Assembly: GCA_022071955.1 (NCBI GenBank)
Contig: JAJVIM010000004.1
Coordinates: 1-64,000, forward strand
From: Anaerolineae bacterium
GTDB taxonomy: Bacteria > Chloroflexota > Anaerolineae > 4572-78 > J111
DNA: 64,000 nt
Direction of reading: 5' to 3'
This document shows, piece after piece, positions 3,141-63,996 of this stretch (position 1 is its first letter; the number at the start of each line of letters is the position of its first letter). The notes beneath the pieces were generated by a model. The model was not told where the DNA came from. It worked only from the letters and a program-made list of their open reading frames with translations, and searched no databases. Both the position numbers and the translations under genes were made by a program.

Positions 3141-3360
3141 CGGCTGCTATCCTCCCAGATAGGGGGAGCCGGGCCACACGCCCAACTCCCCCCGGCCTGC
3201 GACGACGCTGGTCGTCGACGTCCTCCCAGTTTTTGGACGCACATCCAGTATAGCGCTAAAGCTTTCTCAAAAATTATCACAGCTTCTCCCGATTTCTCAG
3301 GAGCGCTTGTCGCCCAACCGGGGATGTGTTATGCTAGGGCGGAGGCGGGTAGCCATAGGT

Positions 3361-3500
3361 CATTGGTCATTGGTCATTGATCATTGATCATTGATAATTG
3401 ATAATTGATAATTGATAATTGATAATTGGTCATTGATAATTGGTCATTGATAATTGGTCATTGGTCATTGGTCATTGATAATTGGTCATTGTTCACTGGT
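3361..3500. repeat. heptanucleotide tandem repeat, 20 units
   Basis: The tract divides without remainder into twenty 7-bp units of the form (c/a)attg(g/a)t, for example cattggt, cattgat and aattgat, with the last two units decayed (cattgtt, cactggt). It ends 20 bp before the GTG start of the STAND gene. The same heptamer family, in the other orientation, occurs at 23498-23539. Such STRR-type heptamers are known from cyanobacteria and other large genomes; a function here is not known. Confidence 0.95.
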
Positions 3501-3520
3501 GTTGCCCGGGAGGTTGTTCG

Positions 3521-45490: not shown

Positions 45491-46222
45491 ATGTATCTAT
45501 ACACACGACGATGGCTGGAAGTTGAGGCGGTTTATCAGCACGCCAGAACCACGCTGGAACTGGCCCGGCACAGATGGGACTCGTCACTGCTGGAACGCCA
45601 GCAGTGGTATGCGGCAGTTATATTGAACACATTGAACCGGCAGGTGAAAATGGAGCCGGTTATGGGGAAGGAGCGGCTTTATGCCTTGAAAATTCTACTG
45701 ATGCGCCATTATTATCAGGCTGGTTGTTGCCGGCAGGTCAACCGGCAGGAGCGGCAGATTCGATGCAATCGGTGCCGGCCGGAAACCCGCTGCCGCTGTA
45801 CGTCGTGCGGCGGGACAGGGTATGTCCGGTTGTATCAGCTCTACGGCTTCGTCTATGAAATCGGCGGCCAGTTGTTTAGCTGGCACATCCCGGATGGACG
45901 ACTGGTGTGGCCGGTCGAGTTAAGCGAAGGCAGGGAAACTGAAGGCGAAGGCGGCCGAATTACGACGGTGCAGCCAGACCTGGGAATGGCGATTTTGTGG
46001 GTATTCCTGGAAAAAGTCGGCGTGAGCCGGACGGAGTTGCCTTACCGGCGCACCTTACGCGATGCCTTGCGTCTGGACGCGCGGGCGGCGCGACGGACTC
46101 TAATTTATCACTTGAAATTACGGGGGTTTTTGAGAAATGAAAATAGACATAACTATTCCGTTGAGAGGGTCGTTCCGGCAGGAATACCGGTTGATGACGG
46201 GCATCGGGAAGCGGTATGCTGA
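45491..46222 (+). CDS. DnaJ-type zinc-finger element protein
   Basis: 243 residues from the ATG at 45491. It has a central zinc cluster IRCNRCRPETRCRCTSCGGTGYV with CxxC...CxC..C-G-x-G, like DnaJ zinc modules, flanked by helices (YALKILLMRHYYQAGCC). The C-terminal part (VFLEKVGVSRTELPYRRTLRDAL) could be a winged-helix. Its end overlaps the asparagine-synthetase-like gene by 86 nt. Confidence 0.6.
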   Translation: MYLYTRRWLEVEAVYQHARTTLELARHRWDSSLLERQQWYAAVILNTLNRQVKMEPVMGKERLYALKILLMRHYYQAGCCRQVNRQERQIRCNRCRPETRCRCTSCGGTGYVRLYQLYGFVYEIGGQLFSWHIPDGRLVWPVELSEGRETEGEGGRITTVQPDLGMAILWVFLEKVGVSRTELPYRRTLRDALRLDARAARRTLIYHLKLRGFLRNENRHNYSVERVVPAGIPVDDGHREAVC

Positions 46223-47342
46223 CGCCGCGCTGGGGATCGACCTGCCGGTCGGCGATGGGGCGGCGATTATCGACAATTCGCTGCCGAAAGGGCTGCTGCT
46301 GGCCAGATCGCACCCGGCGTTTATCCCACTCTTTTACGCGGTCGATGTGGATAAAGGGCTGGTGCGCTGCACGTCTCACAAATTCTTTTTGCCGCGGGCG
46401 ATGACGGTGGCCCCCGGCGAATTTGTGCTGATTGGAGAGAACGGCCGGGAGATGATGCGGCGGCAGTTTGATGACATCGTGGCCCCGCCGGTGGTGCTGG
46501 ACGAAACGATTGAGGAGGCGGCTGGCCGCATCGAGCAGGCGTTTCTCAAGGTCATGCAGCGGGCTTTGAAATTTTATGAAGGCAAACGGCTGGCTTTGGG
46601 ACTGAGCGCGGGAATGGACTCGTCGTTTATGGCCCACCATCTGGTTCACACATTCCGGGTGCCGTTTAAGGCGTATACCGCCTACGTCGATGAGGATGCC
46701 AGCGATCTGGTTGGGGCCAGAAAGGTGGCCGAGAAGCTGGGGCTGGACTGGACGCCGGTTAGGGTCGAGCAGGAGCCGGCCAACATTGTCGAGGCCGCGT
46801 TTTACACCAACACGGCCGAGCATTTGCATCTGGCCATGTCGGTTGCCCGCATGGCGATGGGCCGGGCGGCGCTGGGCGAGACCGATGCCTTTGTGCAGGG
46901 TGACGGCGCAGACGGCGCGTTGGGTGACGGCCCGTGGGAAGGCCGGTCGGCCTGGAGTATCGCCAACCGGGAAGCGATCAGCATTGATGACGCCTGGGCC
47001 AAACAGCGGGCCAAACACATGGCGATTGATATGAGGGCATATTACGAAGCAGAAACTCAATCTTATGGCGCTCTGGGGCTGGACTGGTTCAGCCCGTTCG
47101 CCTTTGAGCCGCTGTTGAGTGTGGCCCTGTCGGTCAGTTACGACAACTGCCCGGAGAAGCCGCGCAAGCTGCCGATGATGCACCTGGCCCGAAAATATTT
47201 CCCGGACATTCCCGACGTTCATAAAAAGGTGGGCTTCATCAAGGGGGCCAAGCTCAGCCGGTCCAAGCCGCTGTTTTCGGAAGCAGCGTTCAGGCGGGCC
47301 TTGAAAGTGGCTGCGGAAATGCGAGGCCAACATGCTGTTTAA
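46137..47342 (+). CDS. asparagine-synthetase-like ATP pyrophosphatase, first of two paralogues
   Basis: 401 residues, starting within the previous gene. Residues about 140-330 are the Asn_synthase (N-type ATP pyrophosphatase) domain: PP-loop LALGLSAGMDSSFMAHHL and FVQGDGADGALGDGP, which matches the SGDGADE motif of AsnB. The N-terminal 135 residues are beta-rich but lack the catalytic Cys2 of the class II glutaminase (it begins MKIDITIPLRGSF), so ammonia or an amine must come from elsewhere. It would adenylate a carboxylate and transfer an amine, making an amide. A second paralogue follows (11-nt overlap). Confidence 0.8.
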   Translation: MKIDITIPLRGSFRQEYRLMTGIGKRYADAALGIDLPVGDGAAIIDNSLPKGLLLARSHPAFIPLFYAVDVDKGLVRCTSHKFFLPRAMTVAPGEFVLIGENGREMMRRQFDDIVAPPVVLDETIEEAAGRIEQAFLKVMQRALKFYEGKRLALGLSAGMDSSFMAHHLVHTFRVPFKAYTAYVDEDASDLVGARKVAEKLGLDWTPVRVEQEPANIVEAAFYTNTAEHLHLAMSVARMAMGRAALGETDAFVQGDGADGALGDGPWEGRSAWSIANREAISIDDAWAKQRAKHMAIDMRAYYEAETQSYGALGLDWFSPFAFEPLLSVALSVSYDNCPEKPRKLPMMHLARKYFPDIPDVHKKVGFIKGAKLSRSKPLFSEAAFRRALKVAAEMRGQHAV

Positions 47343-48552
47343 CGGGACTATCGACTTGCAGAACCCACCGCGACAACGGTATCAGATGCTGCCCGATACC
47401 GGGTACACGCACCGGGAATTGAAGTGGGGCGTCGATTTGCCGCGCAACGATGGCAGCGTTGTGATTCAACCCTCCAAGCATGGCGTGGTCATCAGCCGGG
47501 CCCGGCCGCACATCACCCCGATTTATGTCCAGATCAATCGCAAGGAGCGGGTGCTGCGCTACTCGTCTAATAAGTTTCAGCTCGACCGGCCGAAGGAGTT
47601 GCCGGGCGGACATTTTATGGTGGTCGCCCCGGACGGCAAGATACTGACCAGCGAGGAGTACGACCGCCTGATCCTGCCGGATGTGGTAGTTGGCGAGTCG
47701 CTGGATGAGGCGGCGGCCCGGCTGGAGCGGGGCATCCTGGCCGGGGTTAAGGCCTGCGTTGATTTCCACCGCGGGAAAGTGTGGGGGGTGGGGTTGAGCG
47801 GCGGCATCGATTCGGTGCTGATGACCCACGCCCTGCACCGGCTGGGGGTGCCGTTCAAGGCCTACACCACCTATATCGAGGCCGATAACGACGATTACAT
47901 TGGGGCGCGGCAGATCGCCCAGAAACTGGGGCTGGACTGGACGCCGCTCAAAATCGACCTGAACACGATGTACCCGCACGTGGTCCGGGCCGTCTACGCC
48001 GCCGAATGCAGCGATTACACTAACGCCGGGATGAGCGTCGGGCGGTTGTATATCGGCAATCAGGCCAAAGCCGATGGGGTGCAGGTGGTCATGCAGGGCG
48101 ACGGCGCGGACGGAAACTGGGGGATTTCTCTGGATTGGGGGAACGCCAAACGGTTTATGGCTCAAGGCTACACGGTCCACGAAGCCTGGCAGATGGCGCG
48201 GGCGATTCACATCGAGTCGATGGCCGGGTATCTGTCGGCGGAAACCAAAAGCTATGGAGCGAATGGCCTGGAGTGGATCAGCCCCTACCTGACCCGGCCG
48301 GTGGTTGAGACGATTCTGTCGTTTGACAATGACAATTCGCATTTTTCGCCCAGCAAACAACCGGCCCGGATTCTGGCCGAGCGGTATTTTGCCGATGTGC
48401 GCAGCGTGTTTATGAAGCGGGGTTTTGTGACCGGCAACGGGATGAACGCCCGCAAAAAGGATGGCCTGTTTACGGATGAATTCTATCGCCGGGCGCTGGC
48501 CGCCGCCAAAAAAATGGTGGCCGAGGCCAGAAAAAATGCGGGACAGGTTTGA
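47332..48552 (+). CDS. asparagine-synthetase-like ATP pyrophosphatase, second paralogue
   Basis: 406 residues, 11-nt overlap with the first. PP-loop VWGVGLSGGIDSVLMTHAL (SGGxDS, closer to the canonical form than the upstream copy) and VMQGDGADGNWGI. It also starts without a glutaminase Cys (LFNGTIDLQNPPR). Its N-terminal region repeats the upstream pattern (ELKWGVDLPRNDGSVVIQPSKHG against AALGIDLPVGDGAAIIDNSLP), so the two arose by duplication. Possible roles: amide formation on a small molecule, peptide or nucleotide; lasso-peptide cyclases are distant relatives. Confidence 0.82.
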   Translation: MLFNGTIDLQNPPRQRYQMLPDTGYTHRELKWGVDLPRNDGSVVIQPSKHGVVISRARPHITPIYVQINRKERVLRYSSNKFQLDRPKELPGGHFMVVAPDGKILTSEEYDRLILPDVVVGESLDEAAARLERGILAGVKACVDFHRGKVWGVGLSGGIDSVLMTHALHRLGVPFKAYTTYIEADNDDYIGARQIAQKLGLDWTPLKIDLNTMYPHVVRAVYAAECSDYTNAGMSVGRLYIGNQAKADGVQVVMQGDGADGNWGISLDWGNAKRFMAQGYTVHEAWQMARAIHIESMAGYLSAETKSYGANGLEWISPYLTRPVVETILSFDNDNSHFSPSKQPARILAERYFADVRSVFMKRGFVTGNGMNARKKDGLFTDEFYRRALAAAKKMVAEARKNAGQV

Positions 48553-52038: not shown

Positions 52039-52228
52039 CCCTTTTGGACGATGTTGTCACAAACTGGACTCTGGCGTTTTTAAATTATGGTCAAGTTAGC
52101 CACTACATATTGTGATTGAAACATTTGCCAAAGTACTAAATATGGGCATCAAGTTGACAATAACGAATTTTCGCCAGACTCCAGCACAAATTTAAAGTGG
52201 CATTACAATTAAAATAAATTAAAAAAAA

Positions 52229-52336
52229 GCCCCGTTACAATCGGGGCTTGATTCTACCGAGTCAGGCGATGCTGCGCCCTGTCGGTGCTGCTATGGTAGC
52301 ATCTGCACGCCGCTCCGTCAAAAGAGCGGCGTTTTT
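52229..52336 (+). ncRNA. four-hairpin structured element, copy A
   Basis: H1 GCCCCG / CGGGGC with 7-nt loop (52229-52247); H2 CCGA...TCGG enclosing AGGC / GCGCC (52257-52285); H3 TGCTA / TAGCA with outer GTGC / GCAC (52285-52308); H4 CGCCGCTC / GAGCGGCG (52308-52331) followed by TTTTT. A run of eight A before H1 makes a leftward terminator, and H4 a rightward one. It shares order, loop lengths and the GTCAA in the H4 loop with copies B and C, but differs in stem sequence. Confidence 0.75.
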
Positions 52337-52349
52337 GTTGAGGTAACCC

Positions 52350-52673
52350 TTGACCACAAAGATTTACCTATACGGCCCGCCCGAAGAAACAGAAGAATTG
52401 GCCTGCCGGCTCAGCCTCATTGCCGATGTTGGCAACGTGGGCTGCACCAACACCGGCGATGACCAGCTCGTCTGCTGCGAAGTTGAAGTTGTACCCGACG
52501 ATGGCCTGGCCGGGCGATTAACCAGCGCGGCCGCACTACTAACTGCCGTGGCCGAGGAGATCGGTGGCGGCGTGGCCGAACACCTGGAAGCGGCAATCGA
52601 ACACATAACGCGGGCCGCCAATATTCTGGCGGCGGAAGGCGAAGCAGGGCAACACCCGCCAAGTGGATACTGA
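52350..52673 (+). CDS. 107-residue cassette protein, copy 1
   Basis: TTG start (GAGG 7 nt upstream) in sequence context TTGACCACAAAGATTT, identical to the start of copy 2 at 59184. The protein opens TTKIYLYGPPEETEELACRL, has a Cys-containing middle (DDQLVCCEVEVV), and ends with a long helix (EEIGGGVAEHLEAAIEHITRAANIL). Both copies are 107 residues and identical over the last 45 or so apart from the final two residues. I do not recognise the family. It is followed by a structured element (52725-52838) and the helicase gene. Confidence 0.65.
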   Translation: MTTKIYLYGPPEETEELACRLSLIADVGNVGCTNTGDDQLVCCEVEVVPDDGLAGRLTSAAALLTAVAEEIGGGVAEHLEAAIEHITRAANILAAEGEAGQHPPSGY

Positions 52674-52697
52674 CTCGCCAGCGTTACCGAGATATGC

Positions 52698-52838
52698 TAA
52701 AATGTGATTTGTGAAAAATAAAAAGCCCCGGTGACGACGGGGCTTGATCTTGCCGACCAGGCAGCGAGCGCCCAATCGGTACAATACGGTTATTGTACGC
52801 TCGACGCGCTGCCGGGTCAATCCTGGCGCGCGTTTTTT
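52698..52838 (+). ncRNA. four-hairpin structured element, copy B
   Basis: A TGCTAAAAT extended -10 (TAAAAT 52698-52703) precedes it. H1 GCCCCG-7 nt-CGGGGC (52725-52743); H2 CCGA/TCGG around AGGC/GCGCC (52753-52779); H3 GTACAATA / TTATTGTAC (52779-52798); H4 CGCGC-GCC / GGC-GCGCG with a GGGTCAATCC loop (52805-52832) and TTTTTT. Compared with copy C, H3 and H4 have changed on both arms so that pairing is kept. Confidence 0.78.
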
Positions 52839-52980
52839 GTTGTTGGTTGAGAGGAATAGAGGTTGAAGAAAGCATATGGATAAGTATCTATATGTATATG
52901 ATGAGGTTTGGTTATGTGGAAATATATGACATAGTTCAATAATTGTAGCACCCTGAATTTAAACCAGATGGGGGTTATAA

Positions 52981-55900
52981 ATGTCTGACAATACCGAAGT
53001 TTCCTATAAAGATTATTATCTCAACACCATTCTTAAACAGATTCAGGAAGATGATTTTAATGGGTTTAAACCCGTTGTTGGCCCTACCGGAATGGGGAAG
53101 ACCAGTAGGATACCTCCGGTTATTGAAAAGATACGGGAGATGGAAATTGGTAAAAGCTGTATCTATACATCCCATCGTCATTCGTTAATTGAAGAGATGG
53201 AGAAAGAATTAGCCGATAAAAATATCCCATGTGTTTATCTGAAAAGTAATGAAGATGTAGTTCGGGCATTTATCAAAAATGAAGCACGAGATACGTTTCT
53301 TGGAATGCTGGAGGATGGCGGTTTTTTTGAGGATTATGCTGAAATTTCCCTGCGAGAAACCAAAAAATTGATCCGGCAAATAGAGAGGCTGATCCAATCC
53401 TTAAACAGTATTTCAAGTGAGGAGACTATTGCAACCAATTTAGTTCGGGAAAAACTAAGAGGACTATGTTCAAAGTTGTTAAAAGTCTTCAAAACCGGTT
53501 TAAGCAATATGCCATTGGAGAAAAATGAGAAACTTCTTACATCGAGAAGTTTATTTTGGGTTCTATTCCCCTACGCTCAATTTATACATGACCCTGAAAA
53601 ACCTGTATTGCTGGTAACAATTCATAAACTACTATATGGTTTCTTTACTGGTCATCGGGATGAAGGGATTTTGTCTTTGGAAGATAAGATTATCTTTCTG
53701 GACGAATTTGATATGCAAGAAACTGAAATGTTGTCATTTTTATGCCGTAACAATGAGGTACGCAACAGCTTTGAATTTGTCAGATTATTTGTAGAGGAGA
53801 TGCGAGATCAACAACAGATAGGTTATCTAGACTCTTCGAGCGGTGAGACAAAAGCACAACAAAAAGCGAAGTCAACCATTATTAAGATCGTTCAGGATTT
53901 AGAACAGGAATGTGATGATAACAAGTTTGGATTTCCGCGAATAAGCCGGTTTCTTTTAAGAAAAAGTGAATTTAAGCAAGAGACGATTTCAGCCTTCCAA
54001 TCCAATGTTTTGATTTTAACAAAGCCGTTTCACATACGGAATAACAAAATTTATTGGGAAATTGTAAAAGATAAGACTAAGGATACATTCAACGCCAGAA
54101 ATCTGTTTTACACGATTTTTAGAACAACGGAAGCTATTTTAGAGTTTTTTACAATTCTATGGGCCAATGATTTGACGGCAGAATGGCGAAGTTGGATTGA
54201 ACAGAGTTATGACCGAAAGAACGATCATGAGCCGGGTCAGTATCAGAAAATCATCAGGGAGTATGGGGTCTTTAAGAGGCCGGTCAACTTACCCAAAAAA
54301 GTTAAAGATGAAAATGTTCAAAATAGTATTTATTACAAAGGGTACAATTTTTCTCGGCTAAGTCGTGGCGCTTATCCTGCTTCACCGGATGAAGTCAAAA
54401 TTGACCAAAAAACATTGACCGTCTCTCCCGAATACATTCTCTGGCGTTTATGTCGTTCAAATTTGGTTTTTGGGTTATCCGCCACGGGCGACATGAAACG
54501 GTATATCAATTCTTTCGATATAAATTGGCTTGAAGCACATTGCAACTATCTACCTGTAGATGAAAATGACAAAAACATTGTTTTACAACTAAGGCAACAA
54601 AAAGAAGCTGTCAGGAATTATGAACTTGAACTTGGTGAAGCAAAATCATTGCCAAAAGATCATAAATTGAGCCGAATTCTTGATAGTTTGGATATGCCTT
54701 CACAATTTTTTACCGATGATGATGAATCTTACAAAGAGACAGCAGCGGAACATCGCAAAAAAACTGTAAGTCGATTTTTGGAGAGCTTGAGGTGGATTAC
54801 TCAAGAAAGTAACAATCAAGGGCACTTGATTTTTCTCAATTCCTTCAAATACATCAAAAAACTGTTCCAGAAAGAGCATTTGTCAGACCATTATTATGAC
54901 CATATGCAAGCCCAATTAAGAATTCTCCCTGGTGAAAAAGCTCAGGAATATTGGATAACCATAGATGAGAAAGATTGTTATGTCATACTACTTGACGCTA
55001 AAAAAGGCAGAGCTTTAGCAGAGATGCCAGATGAAAACTTTGTTCAGAAGGCTCAAAATATTCCTTTGGTTGTCGTTACACCTTACAAAACATCATCAAA
55101 CGGCGTAAATCTCAAGTGGGTAGCCTCCGAGGACTCGAACCAGACCAGAGATATGGTTACGATAGGCCAAGATTTTGAGGGTATCCATCTTTTAGAGGCA
55201 CCTCATTATTATTTCAGCGATAATCAAGATGATAGTGACGTAGATAGCCAAAAAGTATTCATTTGGCAGGTGTGGAAACTGTATTCAAATCATGAGATTT
55301 CTGAACGGCAATTTATTCAGGCATTGCAAGACCTGAATATTGCTCGCATGAACAAGGCTTATAAAGGAACATCAGATCATCTATTAAACCAAATTGCCTT
55401 GTTTTATCAAGCCCTGGGACGGGTTGACCGGCAATGGCAACCAATGCCGGTTATGGACATTCGTTTGGCTCAGGATGTATTAGGACTTTTTGAAAAATAT
55501 TTGCTGGAAAAAGGTGTCATTGGTAAACAACGCCTTGACCGCGAACCATATACCTCTTCCCTCATTTTGAAACTACACGAGGCGATTAATAATCGTTATC
55601 TGGATAATTTGATTGCAAACCAGTTAGATTATGAGGACATTGGTCGCATTGAGGAGCGTAGTAAAATCTCTCTCCGTAATTTGTTACAAATAAGCAGCGA
55701 GGTGAGAAAAGAGGCATACTCGGAAGAAGATGCCAGAAAAATCATTCAGGCATGGTGGTTTATTAGAGAAGCTGTATTAAAACAAGATTACAAGTTTAAA
55801 CATCAGGCGAACATTTCAAATGAGTCGACAAATCAACCCATCCGAATCGATTTTGAAAAAGATTTCGTCCTTACTACTGCATTTCTTCAAAACGAACACC

Positions 55901-56592
55901 AACTTTACATAGATTGGCAACATCAGCAAATCGTACCCCATCCAACACCGAACACTTCACGTTATGACTTGAATAAATTTTACCGCAATCTTGAACAGAA
56001 CACGGTTATCAACAAGTATTTCCGAAATCGTAATTATAAATTGCGCTATCACCCATCCAACCAAAACTACTTCTTTACGCGGTATGTCTTGCAATCAGTT
56101 CTGGCCGGCGCAGTAGGAGAAACAGCCCTCAAAGCAATACTGGAACATTTAGGAATTTCTCTGGAACACGAATTGGATTGCCCGCCAAGTCTATTTGAAG
56201 TTTTTGATATGAAAGTTGATGGGGCACCAATATACCTTGATGCCAAAAATTTCAGTTGGGTAACTCTCCATCGTTTTGCCGCTAAACCTGATGAGCCAGA
56301 CTTCGATGAAAGATTGAACTCACAGACTTTTTTGAAAGCCGCTCAACGCAAATGGCAATATATTGTTGAAAAGACGGGTCGTTCTGATGCCAAGCTTGTG
56401 TTTATAAACTTGATTTCAGATGATTACCGGCCTAATGAAGGCTGGGATTGCCAGCTAAATAAAATAGAGCCGTATTCTTACGCAGAGAGTGCTATCACCA
56501 TTATTCAGGGTGTTATCCGAAGCGACAATCTGGATGAGTTGCGGGATGAATTCCAAACCTGGATTAATCAAGTCAAAGAGCAATTAGGCTAA
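52981..56592 (+). CDS. SF2 helicase-nuclease, DdmD-like
   Basis: 1203 residues, AT-rich. Helicase motifs: Walker A VVGPTGMGKTS (Lys40), Walker B IIFLDEFD (Asp241-Glu242), motif III GLSAT (500-502), and motif VI YQALGRVDRQ (Gln810 to Arg817). The C-terminal part is a PD-(D/E)xK nuclease: AVGETALKAILEHLG (Glu1047), then FDMKVDG (Asp1076) and YLDAKNF (Asp1087, Lys1089). Fused helicase plus C-terminal nuclease, about 1200 residues, beside a second large gene is the architecture of DdmD, which with DdmE destroys plasmids in Vibrio cholerae. DdmD of V. cholerae is about 1190 residues with its nuclease Lys near 1100, a similar place. The identification is by architecture and motifs, not by alignment. 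Confidence 0.72.
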   Translation: MSDNTEVSYKDYYLNTILKQIQEDDFNGFKPVVGPTGMGKTSRIPPVIEKIREMEIGKSCIYTSHRHSLIEEMEKELADKNIPCVYLKSNEDVVRAFIKNEARDTFLGMLEDGGFFEDYAEISLRETKKLIRQIERLIQSLNSISSEETIATNLVREKLRGLCSKLLKVFKTGLSNMPLEKNEKLLTSRSLFWVLFPYAQFIHDPEKPVLLVTIHKLLYGFFTGHRDEGILSLEDKIIFLDEFDMQETEMLSFLCRNNEVRNSFEFVRLFVEEMRDQQQIGYLDSSSGETKAQQKAKSTIIKIVQDLEQECDDNKFGFPRISRFLLRKSEFKQETISAFQSNVLILTKPFHIRNNKIYWEIVKDKTKDTFNARNLFYTIFRTTEAILEFFTILWANDLTAEWRSWIEQSYDRKNDHEPGQYQKIIREYGVFKRPVNLPKKVKDENVQNSIYYKGYNFSRLSRGAYPASPDEVKIDQKTLTVSPEYILWRLCRSNLVFGLSATGDMKRYINSFDINWLEAHCNYLPVDENDKNIVLQLRQQKEAVRNYELELGEAKSLPKDHKLSRILDSLDMPSQFFTDDDESYKETAAEHRKKTVSRFLESLRWITQESNNQGHLIFLNSFKYIKKLFQKEHLSDHYYDHMQAQLRILPGEKAQEYWITIDEKDCYVILLDAKKGRALAEMPDENFVQKAQNIPLVVVTPYKTSSNGVNLKWVASEDSNQTRDMVTIGQDFEGIHLLEAPHYYFSDNQDDSDVDSQKVFIWQVWKLYSNHEISERQFIQALQDLNIARMNKAYKGTSDHLLNQIALFYQALGRVDRQWQPMPVMDIRLAQDVLGLFEKYLLEKGVIGKQRLDREPYTSSLILKLHEAINNRYLDNLIANQLDYEDIGRIEERSKISLRNLLQISSEVRKEAYSEEDARKIIQAWWFIREAVLKQDYKFKHQANISNESTNQPIRIDFEKDFVLTTAFLQNEHQLYIDWQHQQIVPHPTPNTSRYDLNKFYRNLEQNTVINKYFRNRNYKLRYHPSNQNYFFTRYVLQSVLAGAVGETALKAILEHLGISLEHELDCPPSLFEVFDMKVDGAPIYLDAKNFSWVTLHRFAAKPDEPDFDERLNSQTFLKAAQRKWQYIVEKTGRSDAKLVFINLISDDYRPNEGWDCQLNKIEPYSYAESAITIIQGVIRSDNLDELRDEFQTWINQVKEQLG

Positions 56593-56620
56593 TCTATACT
56601 TTAGGGAGGAAAAGAACAAG

Positions 56621-59005
56621 ATGCCAGCAAAAGAAAAACGTGTACCTGTTACAACCTTAACCATAAATCCTGATGACATTAACTGGCCTCTACTTCAAGA
56701 AAAGTTTCAATTGTACGGTTATAAAGTTCGTCCTAAATACCGTGATGAGAAGAACTACTATGCCAAAATCCATAACTGGTATAAAACTGTTTGTGATGAT
56801 CCATGTTATTTTTATACGCATAATCAACACATTTATGTTTTATACCCCCCTTCCGCAGAAGAGGTAAGTACATTGAAGTATGAGAATGATATTATCGTCC
56901 CACAAAGGGTTAATTTCACATATCCTGATGTACTTCATATCTTGGTCAAAACATTGGTGAGTAATTATTTTCATACACACGAAACTTTTGTCAGTAATAC
57001 GGATTTCTTTTTGCCCGTGGCTAATCTGGACAGCGACTTTATCACAGTGCTTAAGATTCGGATAAATCAAAATTGGAATAATCGCAATGAATTCTTTTTT
57101 AAGGATGAAGCAAAAGTCTTGAGGAAATTACAAGATATTGAGATGGATAGGTTTTGGTCAAATACCAACTATTATGGTGTTAATTATGACCAGAATAACA
57201 ACCCCACATTCAAGCAACTTCGGTATGACTCTATCCGTTTAAGGCAGAAAAGACAGGGAATTTATGTTTTACCCAGAAGGCATAAAAACAGAGCACAGGT
57301 AACTTATCACTCTGTCAAAAGTTTGGAAGACTTACGGGAGTCGAGGTCTTACATTCTTAACAAGTTTTTCAGGGGGTTATTGGATTACTTGAACCAACTC
57401 GGTCTGCCGTTTAAGCATAAAGAGCTTGATATGTGGAACATAGACGCGCTTAAAGGCAAAGAAATGCAAAAACCACAGATTTCTATAGGTGATAAATCAA
57501 TCTATATTGTTGATGACCGGATGAGACCCCACATCAGACCCGAACTTGAAACAAATAATTTTGCCGATGTTTTTTGTACCACCACGCAGTCGCTCTTAAC
57601 AGAGATGAAAGAAGAGTCGCAAGGCGAAATTTTTGATGGTAAGATACCTGCTCTCAATACCGGAACGGCAGCACAATTACCTGCCGGTAGCTATGTTCTA
57701 CGCATCCAAGATAATGAGGAAGGCGATTTTAAAAATACGTATAAAACTGACCCTATAACAAAAGAAGAGATAATAGCTGAGTTTGCACTCTTTAAGGGCT
57801 ATGAAGACCCGTTGCCCAAGTTTTACAAAGCCCATCCAAAACTTGTCATACAAACCCTAAGTATCAACGATAATACAATAGCTCGAAACAAGCAGCAAAA
57901 ACGAAAAAAGAAATCTACCCCACAAGTAATATGGGATTTAAGCAATTATTTGGACTATGGGCAACCTAACCTTGACGATAATTTTAGATATAAACTTGAA
58001 GTTTCTCTCAATCAACTCATTTTGAAAGATGTTGTCATGCATCCACAAAATGCCCAAACTCTTCTACCAGAAGAACAACTCAAAATTATTACAAATAAGG
58101 TTTTTATGTATTTAGAGAGTTTGATGTATTTTGACGGTACTAATCTCACCTTTATGCCGGTAAGTGGTAACTCCAGCCAGGCACAACAGATTATTAAGGA
58201 TGTAACTAACAAGAATTTAAGATTGGATGTGCTCAAACTGGCAATGGAATGGTACGATAAGTATCAATTCTCTGAGGAAGATATAGAGGATGATGATAAA
58301 GTTTCAGGAACTCTCAAGAAAGGTCGATTTATTATTACCGAGGACTATGTTTGGCAAATCGTAGATAGTCCAGAACGCATGCTGTACCCTGATCATGAAA
58401 TTGAATCCCGGCTTGAAAATCTGGCAGAACAAAGGCCAATAAAGGACTTTTACCCTAAATTTCCCCTGACAGGTGACGAACCCTTTAATGAGCAGCAGTT
58501 GAGGGAGTATGAGGCATTTTTAAAGGAATATGTGGATGAGCGATATATTTCATATGACGAGTTGAAGGACAAATATGGATATATCAAGGAAAGAGATGAT
58601 AAGGGAAAATTGGTAAGAATGCAGCAGGGTATTTATCCCATTTTTGGTATTAAAAATGATGCAAAACTTAAGAGATATTTTCAGGACTTCCTGAACCTGC
58701 CATTTGAAAGTGTTCGATCTGATGATGTAATGTCTGTGTATCAAGGTATCTGGTATGTACCCCAAACACACCAATATCTTGTTGGTGATAAAGATAGCCG
58801 CAAACCCGACCAGGAAAAGGGGTTTGTATTGAGGGAGATATTAATTCATCAGGGTACTTTCGATGGAGAACAGCTATTCAATACCTTAAACACTGATTTC
58901 TTTCCGATGTTACAGGCCAACTTCATTCGGCACAAACAATATACAGTTTATCCATTTCCATTTAATCTTATAGAAATATGGAACAAGATTCGTGTCACGA
59001 ATTGA
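56621..59005 (+). CDS. large partner protein, DdmE-like (inactive Argonaute candidate)
   Basis: 794 residues, 28 bp after the helicase gene with GGGAGG upstream. No enzyme motif could be seen. The chain is mixed alpha/beta, with KPQISIGDKSIYIVDDRMRP in the first half and LPAGSYVLRIQDNEEGDF, TPQVIWDLSNYLDYGQPNLD in the second, compatible with but not proof of a MID-PIWI-like fold. DdmE is a catalytically dead prokaryotic Argonaute that guides DdmD with a short DNA guide. The match rests on gene order, size class (V. cholerae DdmE about 690) and partner. Other two-gene systems with an unrelated second protein remain possible. Confidence 0.5.
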   Translation: MPAKEKRVPVTTLTINPDDINWPLLQEKFQLYGYKVRPKYRDEKNYYAKIHNWYKTVCDDPCYFYTHNQHIYVLYPPSAEEVSTLKYENDIIVPQRVNFTYPDVLHILVKTLVSNYFHTHETFVSNTDFFLPVANLDSDFITVLKIRINQNWNNRNEFFFKDEAKVLRKLQDIEMDRFWSNTNYYGVNYDQNNNPTFKQLRYDSIRLRQKRQGIYVLPRRHKNRAQVTYHSVKSLEDLRESRSYILNKFFRGLLDYLNQLGLPFKHKELDMWNIDALKGKEMQKPQISIGDKSIYIVDDRMRPHIRPELETNNFADVFCTTTQSLLTEMKEESQGEIFDGKIPALNTGTAAQLPAGSYVLRIQDNEEGDFKNTYKTDPITKEEIIAEFALFKGYEDPLPKFYKAHPKLVIQTLSINDNTIARNKQQKRKKKSTPQVIWDLSNYLDYGQPNLDDNFRYKLEVSLNQLILKDVVMHPQNAQTLLPEEQLKIITNKVFMYLESLMYFDGTNLTFMPVSGNSSQAQQIIKDVTNKNLRLDVLKLAMEWYDKYQFSEEDIEDDDKVSGTLKKGRFIITEDYVWQIVDSPERMLYPDHEIESRLENLAEQRPIKDFYPKFPLTGDEPFNEQQLREYEAFLKEYVDERYISYDELKDKYGYIKERDDKGKLVRMQQGIYPIFGIKNDAKLKRYFQDFLNLPFESVRSDDVMSVYQGIWYVPQTHQYLVGDKDSRKPDQEKGFVLREILIHQGTFDGEQLFNTLNTDFFPMLQANFIRHKQYTVYPFPFNLIEIWNKIRVTN

Positions 59006-59183
59006 AACCTGATCACCTGTTATGGTTTTTATAAATTCAATAGAGTCTTGTTTCTTTGATTTAAGAAGGGCAATGGTAAGTATTCAAGTTGTGCCCACCG
59101 ATGAAATGACGTTGTCAAGGTGTTCAAAACTTGAAATCCGAAGAAACCGCCTAAAAGCGGCCAGAGAAAAGATAAAATCAAAC

Positions 59184-59507
59184 TTGACCACAAAGATTTG
59201 GCTATACGGCCCACCCGACGAAACGAAAGAACTGGCCTGCCGGCTCAGCCTCATTGCCGATATTGGCAGCGCTGCTGATTGCGCCACCGGCGATGACCCG
59301 CTCGTCTGCTGCGAAGTTGAAGCCGTACTCGACGATGGTCTTACTGGTCAGTTGATCAGCGCGGCCGCACTACTAACTGCCGTGGCCGAGGAGATCGGTG
59401 GCGGCGTGGCAGAACACCTGGAAGCGGCAATCGAACACATAACCCGGGCTGCCAATATTCTGGCGGCGGAAGGCGAAGCAGGGCAACATCCGCCAAGCAA
59501 CCACTGA
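59184..59507 (+). CDS. 107-residue cassette protein, copy 2
   Basis: Second copy of the gene at 52350-52673, same length, starting at the same TTGACCACAAAG context, opening TTKIWLYGPPDETKELACRL and ending in the same long helix. The frame is open from 59022 but the upstream part has no counterpart in copy 1. The proteins differ at about 17 positions, mostly in the first 60 residues. It precedes structured element copy C. Confidence 0.65.
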   Translation: MTTKIWLYGPPDETKELACRLSLIADIGSAADCATGDDPLVCCEVEAVLDDGLTGQLISAAALLTAVAEEIGGGVAEHLEAAIEHITRAANILAAEGEAGQHPPSNH

Positions 59508-59531
59508 CTCGCCAGCGTTACCGGGATGTGC

Positions 59532-59677
59532 TAAAATGTGATTTGTGAAAAATAAAAAAGCCCCGGTTGCGACGGGGCCTTTCTCAATACCGACCAGGCA
59601 GGGTGCGCCCAATCGGAAACTTGACGATATTTTACGTTCAATGCGCCAGCCGGTCAATCCGCTGGCGCGTTTTTTTG
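59532..59677 (+). ncRNA. four-hairpin structured element, copy C
   Basis: TAAAAT (59532-59537) in the same TGCTAAAAT context as copy B. H1 GCCCCG-7 nt-CGGGGC (59560-59578); H2 CCGA/TCGG around AGGC/GCGCC (59590-59616); H3 TTGACG / CGTTCAA (59621-59641); H4 GCGCCAGC / GCTGGCGC (59643-59668) with a CGGTCAATCC loop and a run of T (59670-59677). It sits between the cassette protein and hsdR. Confidence 0.78.
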
Positions 59678-59783
59678 TAGTCGCTAACAGCGGATGAAGA
59701 AGGTCATTTACCGACGGTGCGGATATGTAGCAGGCCGAGTAAGTCCCAGAAGCGTTAATTTTTATGATGAATGAGCATTGCCA

Positions 59784-62741
59784 ATGCTAGAACAACAAAT
59801 CGAACAAGACCTGATCGCCAAACTGGAAGACCTCAAATACATCTACCGCCCGGACATCCACGACCGGGCCGCGCTGGAGCAGAATTTCCGCGAGAAGTTT
59901 GAGGCGCTCAACCGGGTGCATCTTACCGAGAACGAGTTTACCCGGCTGCTGGAGCAGCTTGTTACCCCGGATGTATTCACCGCCGCCCGCACCCTGCGCG
60001 AAAAGAATAGCTTTGAGCGGGATGACGGGACGCCGCTTTTTTTCGAGATGGTCAACCTGAAGGACTGGTGCAAGAACACCTTTGAGGTGGTCAATCAGTT
60101 GCGGATCAACACCGCCAGCAGCCACCACCGCTATGATGTCATCTTGCTGATTAATGGCGTGCCGGTGGTGCAGATTGAGCTGAAAAACCTGGGCGTCACC
60201 CCCCGCAAGGCCATGCAGCAGATTGTGGATTACAAAAACGACCCCGGCAACGGTTACACCAATACCCTGCTCTGCTTTATGCAACTATTCATTGTCAGCA
60301 ACCGCAGCGAGACCTGGTACTTTGCCAACAACAACGCCCGCCATTTCAGCTTTAACGCCGATGAGCGTTTTCTGCCCGTTTACCAGCACGCGGCGGTAGA
60401 TAACAAAAAAATCAGCCACTTGGACGGCTTTGCCGCTGAATTTCTGGCCAAGTGTACGCTGGGCGAGATGGTCAGCCGCTATATGGTGCTGGTGGCCAGC
60501 GAGCAAAAGCTGCTGATGATGCGCCCTTACCAGATTTACGCCGTTAAAGCCATTGTCGAGTGCATCCACCAGAACGCCGGCAACGGCTATATCTGGCACA
60601 CCACCGGCAGCGGTAAAACGCTGACTTCCTTCAAGGCCTCCACCCTGCTTAAGGATAACCCGGATATTGAAAAATGCCTCTTTGTGGTGGACCGCAAAGA
60701 CCTTGACCGGCAGACGCGGGAGGAGTTTAACCGCTTTCAGGAGGGGTGTGTTGAGGAAAATACCAATACCGCCGCGCTGGTGCGGCGGCTGCTGTCCGAT
60801 AACTACGCCGATAAGGTGATTGTCACCACCATCCAGAAGCTGGGCCTGGCGCTGGACGGCAACAACAAGCGCAACTACCAGGAGCAGCTACAACCCCTGC
60901 GCGATAAGCGCGTCGTCTTTATTTTTGACGAATGTCACCGCTCCCAATTTGGCGAGAACCACAAGGCCATCAAGGAATTTTTTCCCCGCGCCCAGCTTTT
61001 TGGCTTTACCGGCACGCCCATTTTTGAGGCCAACGCCACTTACCAGCAGTTTGAGGGGGAGCAGGGTTCCTGGAAAACCACGGCAGACCTCTTTCAAAAG
61101 GAGCTGCACGCCTACACCATCACCCACGCCATCGAAGATAAAAACGTGCTGCGTTTTCACGTGGACTATTTCAAGCCCGAAGGCGAAAACAAGCCGGAAC
61201 CAGGCGAGGCCCTGGCCAAGCAAGCCATTGTTAAGGCCATTCTGGAAAAACACGATGCCGCCACCGCTCACCGCAAGTTTAACGCGCTGCTGGCCACCGC
61301 TTCCATCAATGACGCCATTGCCTATCACGATCTATTCAAGCAAATGCAGGCCGAAAAACAGGCCGCAGATGATACCTTTCGCCCGCTGAATATCGCATGC
61401 GTCTTTTCGCCCCCCGCCGAAGGCAACCCGGATGTGCAGCAAATTCAGGAAGACCTGCCCCAGGAACGGGCCGACAACGCCCAGGAGCCGGACAAAAAGA
61501 AGGCAGCGCTCCAGGCGATTATGGCCGACTACAACGCCCGCTACGGCACCAATCACCACCTGGCCGAGTTTGACCGCTACTATCAGGATGTGCAAAAGCG
61601 CATCAAGGATCAGCAATACCCCAACCGGGATGTGCCGCCCGCCCAAAAAGTTGACCTGGTGATTGTGGTCGATATGCTGCTGACCGGTTTCGACTCCAAA
61701 TACCTGAACACGCTCTACGTGGATAAAAAGCTGCGCTATCACAGCCTGATCCAGGCTTTTTCGCGCACCAACCGCGTGTTGAACGATACCAAGCCCGATG
61801 GTAATATCCTCGATTTTCGCCAGCAGCAGGCGGCGGTGGATGAAGCCATCGAGCTTTTTTCCGGCGAGGCCGGGGAACGGGCCAAAGAAATCTGGCTGGC
61901 CCCGCCCGCCCCGGAGGTCATCAACGGTCTGGAAACCGCGGTGAAAAAGCTCGATCTGTTTATGCAGTCGCAGGGGCTGGCCTGCGCCCCGGAAGATGTC
62001 CCCAACCTCAAGGGCGATGCCGCCCGCAGTATGTTCATCAACCTGTTTAAGGATGTGCAGCGCCTCAAGACCAAACTGGATCAGTACACCGACCTGACCC
62101 CGGACCACACCGCCGCCATCGAGCGGGCCATCCCCGCCGAGCAGTTGCAGGGCTTCCGGGGCGTTTACCTGGAGCTGGCCCAGCGCCTCAAGGATAAGCA
62201 GGACAAAGAGGATACCGACCCGAAGGTGCAGCAGCTTGATTTTGAGTTTGTGCTGTTTGCCAGCGCCATTATTGATTACGATTACATTATGGCCCTGCTG
62301 GCCCGCTATGAGGGGGCCAAACCGGGTAAAGAGACGGTGAGCCGCGAGCAGTTGATTGGCCTGATTGCCGCCGATGCCAAATTTGTGGACGAGCGCGAGG
62401 AGATTACCGCCTACATCAACACCCTAAAACCGGGCGGCGGTCGCAGCGAAGCCGACATCCGCGCCGGGTACGAAGCCTTTAAGGACGAGCAGAACGCCCG
62501 CCGCCTGGCCGAGATTGCCGCCGCCCACGGCCTGGAGACCGCCGCCCTACAACCCTTTGTGGAGGCCGTTATCCGCCGGCTGATTTTTGACGGCGAGCAG
62601 TTGACCGACCTGCTGGCCCCGCTGGGCCTGGGTTGGAAAGCCCGCAAGCAAAAGGAAGATGGCTTAATGGCCGACCTGATCCCCCTGCTGAAAAAACTGG
62701 CCCACGGGCGGGAGATTTCGGGGTTAAAAGCGTATGAGTAA
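59784..62741 (+). CDS. hsdR: type I restriction enzyme HsdR (endonuclease/translocase)
   Basis: 985 residues from the ATG at 59784. The N-terminal nuclease domain has the PD-(D/E)xK type motif RYDVILLINGVPVVQIELKN (Asp, then Glu-x-Lys). The helicase/translocase part has Walker A IWHTTGSGKTLTSF, the DEAD-like motif VFIFDECHRSQFG, FGFTGTPIF (motif III), and VDMLLTGFDSKYLNTLYVDK plus IQAFSRTNRVL (motifs V-VI). The C-terminal 250 residues are the helical region that binds HsdM. It cuts unmethylated foreign DNA at a distance after translocation. Gene order hsdR-hsdS, with hsdM not seen in the window, implies hsdM beyond 64000. Confidence 0.95.
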   Translation: MLEQQIEQDLIAKLEDLKYIYRPDIHDRAALEQNFREKFEALNRVHLTENEFTRLLEQLVTPDVFTAARTLREKNSFERDDGTPLFFEMVNLKDWCKNTFEVVNQLRINTASSHHRYDVILLINGVPVVQIELKNLGVTPRKAMQQIVDYKNDPGNGYTNTLLCFMQLFIVSNRSETWYFANNNARHFSFNADERFLPVYQHAAVDNKKISHLDGFAAEFLAKCTLGEMVSRYMVLVASEQKLLMMRPYQIYAVKAIVECIHQNAGNGYIWHTTGSGKTLTSFKASTLLKDNPDIEKCLFVVDRKDLDRQTREEFNRFQEGCVEENTNTAALVRRLLSDNYADKVIVTTIQKLGLALDGNNKRNYQEQLQPLRDKRVVFIFDECHRSQFGENHKAIKEFFPRAQLFGFTGTPIFEANATYQQFEGEQGSWKTTADLFQKELHAYTITHAIEDKNVLRFHVDYFKPEGENKPEPGEALAKQAIVKAILEKHDAATAHRKFNALLATASINDAIAYHDLFKQMQAEKQAADDTFRPLNIACVFSPPAEGNPDVQQIQEDLPQERADNAQEPDKKKAALQAIMADYNARYGTNHHLAEFDRYYQDVQKRIKDQQYPNRDVPPAQKVDLVIVVDMLLTGFDSKYLNTLYVDKKLRYHSLIQAFSRTNRVLNDTKPDGNILDFRQQQAAVDEAIELFSGEAGERAKEIWLAPPAPEVINGLETAVKKLDLFMQSQGLACAPEDVPNLKGDAARSMFINLFKDVQRLKTKLDQYTDLTPDHTAAIERAIPAEQLQGFRGVYLELAQRLKDKQDKEDTDPKVQQLDFEFVLFASAIIDYDYIMALLARYEGAKPGKETVSREQLIGLIAADAKFVDEREEITAYINTLKPGGGRSEADIRAGYEAFKDEQNARRLAEIAAAHGLETAALQPFVEAVIRRLIFDGEQLTDLLAPLGLGWKARKQKEDGLMADLIPLLKKLAHGREISGLKAYE

Positions 62742-63996
62742 CAAGCAGAACAAACGCGGCGCAACGCCCAAACTGCGCTTCCCTGAGTTTCGGACGTTGG
62801 GAGCGTGGGTGGAGAAAACAGTGGGTCAGATTTCAAAAAATGTTACTGCTGGTGGAACACCCAGTACTTTAAAAAAAGAGTATTGGGAGGGCAGTATTAG
62901 GTGGATGAATTCAGGCGAGTTAAATCACAAAAAAGTCTACGAGGTACAGGGCAGGATTACTGAGGAAGGTTTACAAAATTCAAGCACGAAGTTAATCCCA
63001 AAATACTGTGTACTGATAGGTTTAGCAGGTCAAGGGAGAACTCGCGGTACGGTTGCAATGAACATGGTGGAACTATGCACCAATCAGTCAATAGCAGCTA
63101 TATTTCCAAATGAGAAGATTTTTGATTGTAACTTTCTCTACCACAATTTAGATCACAGATATGATGAATTGAGAAGATTGTCTACCGGAAGTGAGGGGCG
63201 TGGCGGATTAAATTTACAAATTATCAAGTCTCTGAAAATCAACCTTCCAACATTACCCGAACAACGCAAAATCGCCGAGTGCCTGACCTCCCTCGACGAC
63301 CTCATCGCCGCCCACGGCCAAAAGCTCGACGCGCTGCGGGCGCATAAAAAAGGGCTGCTGCAACAACTCTTCCCCGCCGAGGGCGAATCCGTCCCCCGCC
63401 TGCGCTTCCCGGAGTTTCGGGCGTCGGGGCCGTGGGATTTTCGTGAATTAGGGGATTTTATCACCGAAAGAAATGAGTCTCCACAAGAAAAGATACCTTT
63501 ATTCAGTTTAACTATAGAAAATGGTGTTACCGAGAAAACTGAGCGCTATGAGCGATCTTTTCTGGTTAAAAATGAAGAAGATGCTTATAAATTAGTTTTA
63601 CCAGATGATTTTGCATATAACCCGATGAACTTAAGATTTGGAGCAATTGCAAGACACTCCGGTGCCGAAAAGGTTGCACTATCAAAATACTACAATATTT
63701 TCTATTGCGATCAATCTGTAGATTCTAGATTTTGTGAGCACTACTTCAAAAGTGACAAGATGATCAAGTTCTATGACAACATGGCTACTGGGTCATTAAT
63801 TGAGAAAAGGCGTGTGCATTTTAGTGATTTTCTAAAATTCAATATTCGGTTCCCGATTTTGGCCGAACAACGCAAAATCGCCGAGTGCTTGTCCGCCCTC
63901 GACGAGCAGATTGCCGCCCAAGGCCAAAAAATCGCCGCGCTCAATGCCCACAAAAAAGGGTTGTTGCAGCAACTATTCCCTATTCAGGAAGATTAA
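62734..63996 (+). CDS. hsdS: type I restriction enzyme specificity subunit HsdS
   Basis: 420 residues, overlapping hsdR by 8 nt. Two target recognition domains (about 25-175 and 230-375), each followed by the same conserved helix region: EQRKIAECLTSLDDLIAAHG then ALRAHKKGLLQQLFP after the first, and EQRKIAECLSALDEQIAAQG then ALNAHKKGLLQQLFP after the second. PKLRFPEFR and PRLRFPEFR start the two half-sites. The TRD DNA is AT-rich while the repeats and flanking hsdR are GC-rich, a mosaic typical of TRD swapping. It sets the split recognition sequence of the R-M enzyme. Complete, ending 4 nt before the window end. Confidence 0.95.
   Translation: MSNKQNKRGATPKLRFPEFRTLGAWVEKTVGQISKNVTAGGTPSTLKKEYWEGSIRWMNSGELNHKKVYEVQGRITEEGLQNSSTKLIPKYCVLIGLAGQGRTRGTVAMNMVELCTNQSIAAIFPNEKIFDCNFLYHNLDHRYDELRRLSTGSEGRGGLNLQIIKSLKINLPTLPEQRKIAECLTSLDDLIAAHGQKLDALRAHKKGLLQQLFPAEGESVPRLRFPEFRASGPWDFRELGDFITERNESPQEKIPLFSLTIENGVTEKTERYERSFLVKNEEDAYKLVLPDDFAYNPMNLRFGAIARHSGAEKVALSKYYNIFYCDQSVDSRFCEHYFKSDKMIKFYDNMATGSLIEKRRVHFSDFLKFNIRFPILAEQRKIAECLSALDEQIAAQGQKIAALNAHKKGLLQQLFPIQED

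Follow-up and report, generated by a model that had tools for sequence, protein, structure and literature searches.

The window analyzed here, a stretch of 64,000 nucleotides (nt) of contig JAJVIM010000004.1 from an Anaerolineae bacterium (Chloroflexota; assembly GCA_022071955.1), contains three copies (A, B, and C) of an element composed of four hairpins (H1–H4) and a T-run. Copy A is followed by an open reading frame (ORF) of 107 amino acids (aa), copy B by genes of 1203 and 794 aa and a second copy of the 107-aa ORF, and copy C by genes for HsdR and a probable HsdS. The three elements, hereafter leaders, are members of a structured-RNA family absent from Rfam, and the genes behind this leader are strikingly often defense systems. 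The first-pass annotation had described three four-hairpin elements with this hairpin order, these loops, and these T-runs, as well as a box common to B and C upstream of H1, and all of these were found in place:

52220–52340, + strand: leader copy A, H1–H4 plus T-run, preceding the 107-aa ORF (covariance model 97 bits, E = 3e-19)
52716–52839, + strand: leader copy B (covariance model 139.6 bits, E = 2e-29)
59551–59676, + strand: leader copy C (covariance model 113.5 bits, E = 4e-23)
52695–52703, + strand: extended −10 promoter box TGCTAAAAT of leader B, pattern TGnTAnnnT
59529–59537, + strand: box TGCTAAAAT of leader C, identical to that of leader B
52725–52743, + strand: H1 of copy B, GCCCCG/CGGGGC; two-sided changes at 8 of 8 pairs among 61 homologues
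52753–52779, + strand: H2 of copy B, CCGA/TCGG with inner GGC/GCC; two-sided changes at 7 of 7 pairs; proposed anti-antiterminator
52779–52798, + strand: H3 of copy B, a variable hairpin with the motif ATNNTA on its 3' strand
52805–52838, + strand: H4 and T-run of copy B, with intrinsic-terminator shape and a GGTCAA loop; two-sided changes at 4 of 4 consensus pairs
52755–52766, + strand: copy B strand P, GACCAGGCAGCG, which makes up the 5' half of H2; complement of strand Q (RNAduplex)
52807–52818, + strand: copy B strand Q, CGCTGCCGGGTC, comprising the 5' arm of H4 together with its loop; complement of strand P

All three copies fold with energies far below those of shuffled sequences (z = −5.6 for A, −4.0 for B, and −2.5 for C). 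Copies B and C, each with its preceding 107-aa ORF, represent a recent segmental duplication with ~90% DNA identity, and copy A is without the TGCTAAAAT box. Given that B and C are recent duplicates, their comparison alone is weak evidence, and a proper test calls for additional copies.

A BLAST search of the genome that holds the window (G000, 7.9 Mb) returned about ten further places, and a covariance model built from 13 copies (R1, alignment A3) retrieved 15 copies from it with E < 1e-9, plus one more at 7e-5; other genomes of the family hold copies as well. A second model of 36 sequences (R2) retrieved further copies, two of them in G000, which holds about 16–18 copies in total, and a third of 61 (R3) served for wider scans. 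About 60 copies were curated, mostly from one bacterial family of Chloroflexota. Matches were obtained in 16 of 25 genomes at the order level (E ≤ 0.01), in 13 of 298 at the class level (E ≤ 1e-4), and in only 8 of 400 at the phylum level (E ≤ 0.001), mostly weak in the last case. Judged by eye, the outliers G016 and G071, which belong to other families within the order and the class, respectively, are convincing, G044, G108, G371, and G244 are plausible, and the matches in G013, G023, G184, and G413 look like chance. Rfam searches returned no family match at the gathering threshold for the window and five other loci, except a nearby tRNA, and cmscan at E ≤ 5 gave nothing credible for 12 loci. 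We found no description of a shared leader of this kind in the open-access literature searched. Two exact patterns scanned against viral contigs had no match, and thus these scans, limited to the two patterns, gave no sign of phage carriage.

The changed but still pairing stems reported by the first-pass annotation are not a product of chance, and they persisted among the many homologues recovered by the covariance-model search of relatives that it had proposed. Across 61 homologues, all 19 consensus pairs had two-sided, pair-keeping changes (151 cells, compared to 33.5 ± 5.8 in shuffled alignments), including the four consensus pairs of H4, for which changes on both arms had been noted, and none of 500 shuffles reached any covariation measure. 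Pairing was found in 94.0% of cells versus 78.7% after shuffling, and in 98% for the consensus H4 pairs, values from an alignment that was fitted to the covariance model and therefore leans towards that structure; sliding the partners by 1–3 columns reduced pairing to 22–50%. The 36-sequence set gave the same picture. H1 pairing was kept even in copies of quite different sequence, and in copies G10d and G10f (L114 and L116 of genome G010) H1 was enlarged by ~40 nt of extra hairpin sequence, indicating that this helix tolerates insertions. H3 was the most variable and least supported of the four helices and lies outside the consensus structure: the pairs originally given hold in copies A (TGCTA/TAGCA) and B (GTACAATA/TTATTGTAC), while that of copy C, TTGA(A)CG/CGTTCAA, is imperfect. 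Its 3' strand has the motif ATNNTA in 46 of 61 copies (6.4 expected), which resembles a −10 box, and an internal promoter was rejected after no consistent −35 box or spacing was seen by eye. The H4 loop, near the 3' end, reads GGTCAA in 41 of 61 copies, compared to 0.45 expected; given that a terminator loop needs no set sequence, this fixed loop counts in favor of a switch. A folded RNA, as initially proposed, with a length of ~105–125 nt, is strongly supported by this covariation together with the promoter-like box upstream and the intrinsic-terminator shape at the 3' end.

The position of the leader was also conserved. An extended −10 box (TGnTAnnnT) was present upstream of 52 of 58 curated copies, mostly 12–22 nt before the element start, and 48 of 56 copies shared their orientation with the first downstream ORF, at a median distance of 33 nt, as expected from the consistent upstream placement of a cis-regulatory RNA. 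The weak model matches G4c, G8e, G10m, G6g, and G5c were excluded from these counts by eye. Because the first ORFs are so close (27 within 60 nt), there is little room for another promoter. Several of the eight strand exceptions were artifacts of the simple ORF caller: copy G1a has a CRISPR I-B operon behind it, and copy O a small same-strand ORF, PH-domain-like by eye, with HsdM next. H4 and its T-run have the shape of the intrinsic terminator that an attenuator would require. Attenuation via a leader peptide was considered and rejected: no upstream ORF was conserved, and closed ones starting with ATG and having 5 or more codons occurred in 20 of 61 leaders. At one locus (L127, 1336–2029), two divergent leaders stand back to back, with an Hma-type helicase behind one and a Ser/Thr protein kinase behind the other.

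Strong PADLOC matches (E < 1e-20) were found in the first few genes behind 24 of 56 copies, the defense gene being second or third in some. These comprised type I restriction–modification (RM) systems behind leaders C, D, and G3b, and, following a DUF262-type gene, G9b; type IIG RM behind M, G3c, G6d, G8b, and G4b; CRISPR systems of type I-C (F) and I-B (G1a); Hma (G1b, G2a, and G6f); DISARM-type genes (G3d, G9c, and R); HKD-SNF2 helicases (I and G6e); BREX BrxC/PglY (G4a); a ThsB-like TIR protein (G6c); and ZorD-like (G8d), PDC-S68 (G10h), and PDC-S02 (G8c) matches. Further copies had EAD7, WD40, FGE-sulfatase, or TIR domains downstream, which are typical of conflict systems. By comparison, at most six of 44 genes upstream of leaders had PADLOC matches, among them one HKD-SNF2 and no RM, CRISPR effector, DISARM, BREX, or Hma protein. 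The difference between downstream and upstream (24/56 versus 6/44; Fisher p = 0.001) comes from an unevenly matched control, in that several downstream genes were sometimes scanned per copy, the classes were chosen by us, and the upstream genes were shorter. Among 81 random G000 ORFs, the 25 listed of 37 families matched at E ≤ 1e-20 were of kinase, MADS, PD-T4-6, MkoA, and desaturase type. Large PAS or hybrid histidine kinases directly follow six copies (G, J, N, P, G10b, and, by eye, G10d; loci L095, L114, L017, L083, L084, and L021), and these may be regulators tied to defense.

Within the leader, two strands are complementary to each other: P, the 5' half of H2, and Q, which spans the 5' arm of H4 and its loop. 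An antiterminator and the terminator would therefore be mutually exclusive, a feature that, like the placement before defense genes, was not part of the first-pass annotation. The sequence in the 5' half of H2 that complements the loop consists of GAYC and then AGG or a variant of it; in copy B, GACCAGGCAGCG and CGCTGCCGGGTC pair at 11 of 12 positions. Divergent copies achieve this pairing with different bases: G6f and S pair TTGACCAGG with CCTGGTCAA, O pairs CUGAC with GUCAG, and G8 pairs GACCAA with TTGGTC. P:Q complementarity was present in all 36 copies of the first set and all 61 of the later one. Mean duplex energies were lower for a copy's own partner than for swapped partners, both in the 36 copies (−18.5 versus −16.5 kcal/mol) and in the 61 (−20.7 versus −18.7 kcal/mol), with none of 20,000 permutations reaching the observed value in either set and one of 20,000 when 26 divergent copies were taken alone. 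Only energy separated the two, as the longest contiguous run did not differ (7.08 for own versus 7.10 for swapped partners). A median of 6.9 kcal/mol separates the P:Q state from the terminator state, which is the more stable of the two in 33 of 36 copies; in 28 of 36, P:Q is within 10 kcal/mol of it. Judged from these pairings, the layout appears to be that of an attenuator, with H2 as anti-antiterminator, P:Q as antiterminator, and H4 as terminator. In copy G6c (L098, 10510–10628), H4 is exactly reverse-complemented relative to its sister copies; the terminator is kept and P:Q is weakened, as in a natural mutant of the proposed switch.

We consider it likely that the element is a cis-acting transcription-attenuation leader RNA placed before defense or conflict operons. 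The leader, ~105–165 nt long, would be made from its own SigA-type promoter and carry a conditional intrinsic terminator directly upstream of the operon. By default, H2 would form and leave the 5' arm of H4 free, so that H4 and the T-run stop transcription; alternatively, strand P would pair with strand Q, H4 would be blocked, and RNA polymerase would continue into the genes. The choice would be controlled by a signal that may relate to phage attack or stress. The sequences themselves display the conserved RNA structure, P:Q complementarity, promoter box, terminator shape, and placement before defense genes, and we infer from them the transcription stop at H4, the antiterminator role of P:Q, and the control by a signal.

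Several observations weigh against this interpretation. About half of the copies have no recognized defense gene behind them, and some are followed instead by PAS histidine kinases, a protein kinase (G2b), secreted propellers, or unmatched genes. Of the four HsdM operons in G000, three are preceded by the leader (copies C, D, and O) and the one on C55 is not; in G006 and G010, every HsdM operon found was without it. The preference of P for its own Q was weak among G000 copies alone (556 of 20,000 permutations), swapped partners pair well too (−18.7 versus −20.7 kcal/mol on average), pairing is poor in copies P and G6c, and the permutations count related copies as independent. The complementarity could also partly follow from the GC-richness of both hairpins. 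In a different explanation, the element is an independent small RNA, ~120 nt long with its end at H4, which acts in trans and lies near defense genes via common islands. Its own promoter and terminator would make it a complete small gene, and GGTCAA in the apical loop could serve as a base-pairing seed. We find this explanation unlikely, given that the downstream gene starts a median of 33 nt further on the same strand and that defense effectors are not enriched among upstream neighbors; moreover, such an RNA has no need of many divergent copies per genome, and each P strand fits its own Q best.

The pairing also bears on the proposal of a constitutive attenuator, in which a fixed partial terminator and stable hairpins would keep costly or toxic defense genes low without any signal. 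Low expression benefits RM and conflict genes, and the greater stability of the terminator state in 33 of 36 copies agrees with this proposal, which we nevertheless regard as quite improbable because a fixed terminator needs neither conserved P, Q, and H4 loop nor a P:Q pairing that favors its own partner. Least probable is a mobile or recombination site at the DNA level, similar to attC or to miniature inverted-repeat transposable elements, which would fold as single-stranded DNA and capture defense cassettes. The tandem arrangement of leader, gene, leader, genes, and leader in the window, the duplicated ORF plus leader, and the paired copies in other islands (E/F and G6b/G6c) are compatible with such a site. 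The folded single-stranded DNA site that the first-pass annotation had offered as an alternative nonetheless found little support, since the promoter, the T-run, and the strand relation to the downstream genes are all conserved and are what an RNA leader needs; in addition, copies diverge along with their genomes, and no target-site duplication or recombinase association was found, although these were looked for only in passing. Behind leader copy Q lies an opposite-strand ORF judged integrase-like by eye, no integrase search having been made.

The nearest described case is the RCd22 leader before abiF in Clostridioides difficile, in which most transcription stops at the leader terminator and for which riboswitch-like regulation was proposed (PMC12373285). 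The abiF motif (RF03085) and RCd22 resemble the present leader in having a SigA promoter, a leader of ~100–130 nt, and a Rho-independent terminator just before a phage-defense gene (PMC12373285). However, they are bound to one gene family, abiF, whereas the present family is a different RNA that fronts a far wider set of unrelated systems; cmscan gave no RF03085 match to the leaders at the gathering threshold or at E ≤ 5. The prediction that antiterminator and terminator exclude each other within a 5' leader recalls attenuation riboswitches and attenuators, although the genes concerned here are for defense and not metabolism, and no known riboswitch aptamer was matched in the Rfam scans. T-box leaders share the competition between terminator and antiterminator, and UGG is present in strand Q; this identity was rejected, as no Stem I or specifier loop was recognized and Rfam gave no match. 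Processive antitermination leaders, such as the phage put RNA and the EAR element, are multi-hairpin RNAs that precede long operons and act on the polymerase at later terminators. The present element is likewise a multi-hairpin RNA, but holds its own terminator and competing pairing. Some downstream genes share EAD, TIR, WD40, and FGE-sulfatase domains with the conflict systems of multicellular bacteria (PMC7159879), the part of that work drawn on here dealing with proteins and not with a shared leader RNA.

The genes accompanying the three leaders in the window are the following:

52350–52673, + strand: 107-aa ORF of unassigned family, with its start 9 nt downstream of leader A; Pfam and PADLOC gave no match
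52981–56592, + strand: 1203-aa ORF, first gene behind leader B, with a P-loop-like VVGPTGMGKT near the N-terminus
56621–59005, + strand: 794-aa ORF, second gene behind leader B
59022–59507, + strand: 161-aa ORF holding the second 107-aa copy, just before leader C
59778–62741, + strand: HsdR, type I restriction subunit, first gene behind leader C (PADLOC REase_I, E = 0; Pfam HSDR_N and EcoR124_C)
62734–63996, + strand: probable HsdS specificity subunit, by position and inspection of the sequence

HsdM lies beyond the window end (contig C6:65115). The 107-aa protein was found only twice in G000, its second copy being at 59184–59501. The 1203-aa ORF had no match in PADLOC, Pfam, NCBIfam, or PDB, nor did the 1203-aa and 794-aa pair match anything in the libraries used, and the AlphaFold model of the 794-aa protein was too poor for use (predicted local distance difference test score of 45). 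Homologues of the two are adjacent in G008 (L202) and G104 (L203), without the leader there, and the pair may be a candidate uncharacterized two-gene defense system. Elsewhere in the window, tandem repeats of ATTGATA/ATTGGTC units (7–14 bp) occur at 3341–3508, and 46137–48552 holds a pair of neighboring paralogous ORFs, each ~400 aa long and judged by eye to resemble asparagine synthase.

The coordination of many bacterial defense systems is poorly understood, and known control is mostly local to a single system. Given that the same leader precedes them, unrelated defense systems could be released together by one signal. It is possible, although we propose it only tentatively, that the leader constitutes a genome-wide immune riboregulon, in which one class of RNA switch responding to a single infection- or stress-linked signal would gate RM, CRISPR-Cas, DISARM, BREX, Hma, TIR, and other systems in one lineage. 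If true, a leader common to RM, CRISPR-Cas, DISARM, BREX, and TIR would be an RNA-level control point for much of the arsenal and a direct handle on the signal that arms it. The leader would also serve as a search tool, making unassigned genes behind it, such as the 1203-aa and 794-aa pair, candidate defense systems.

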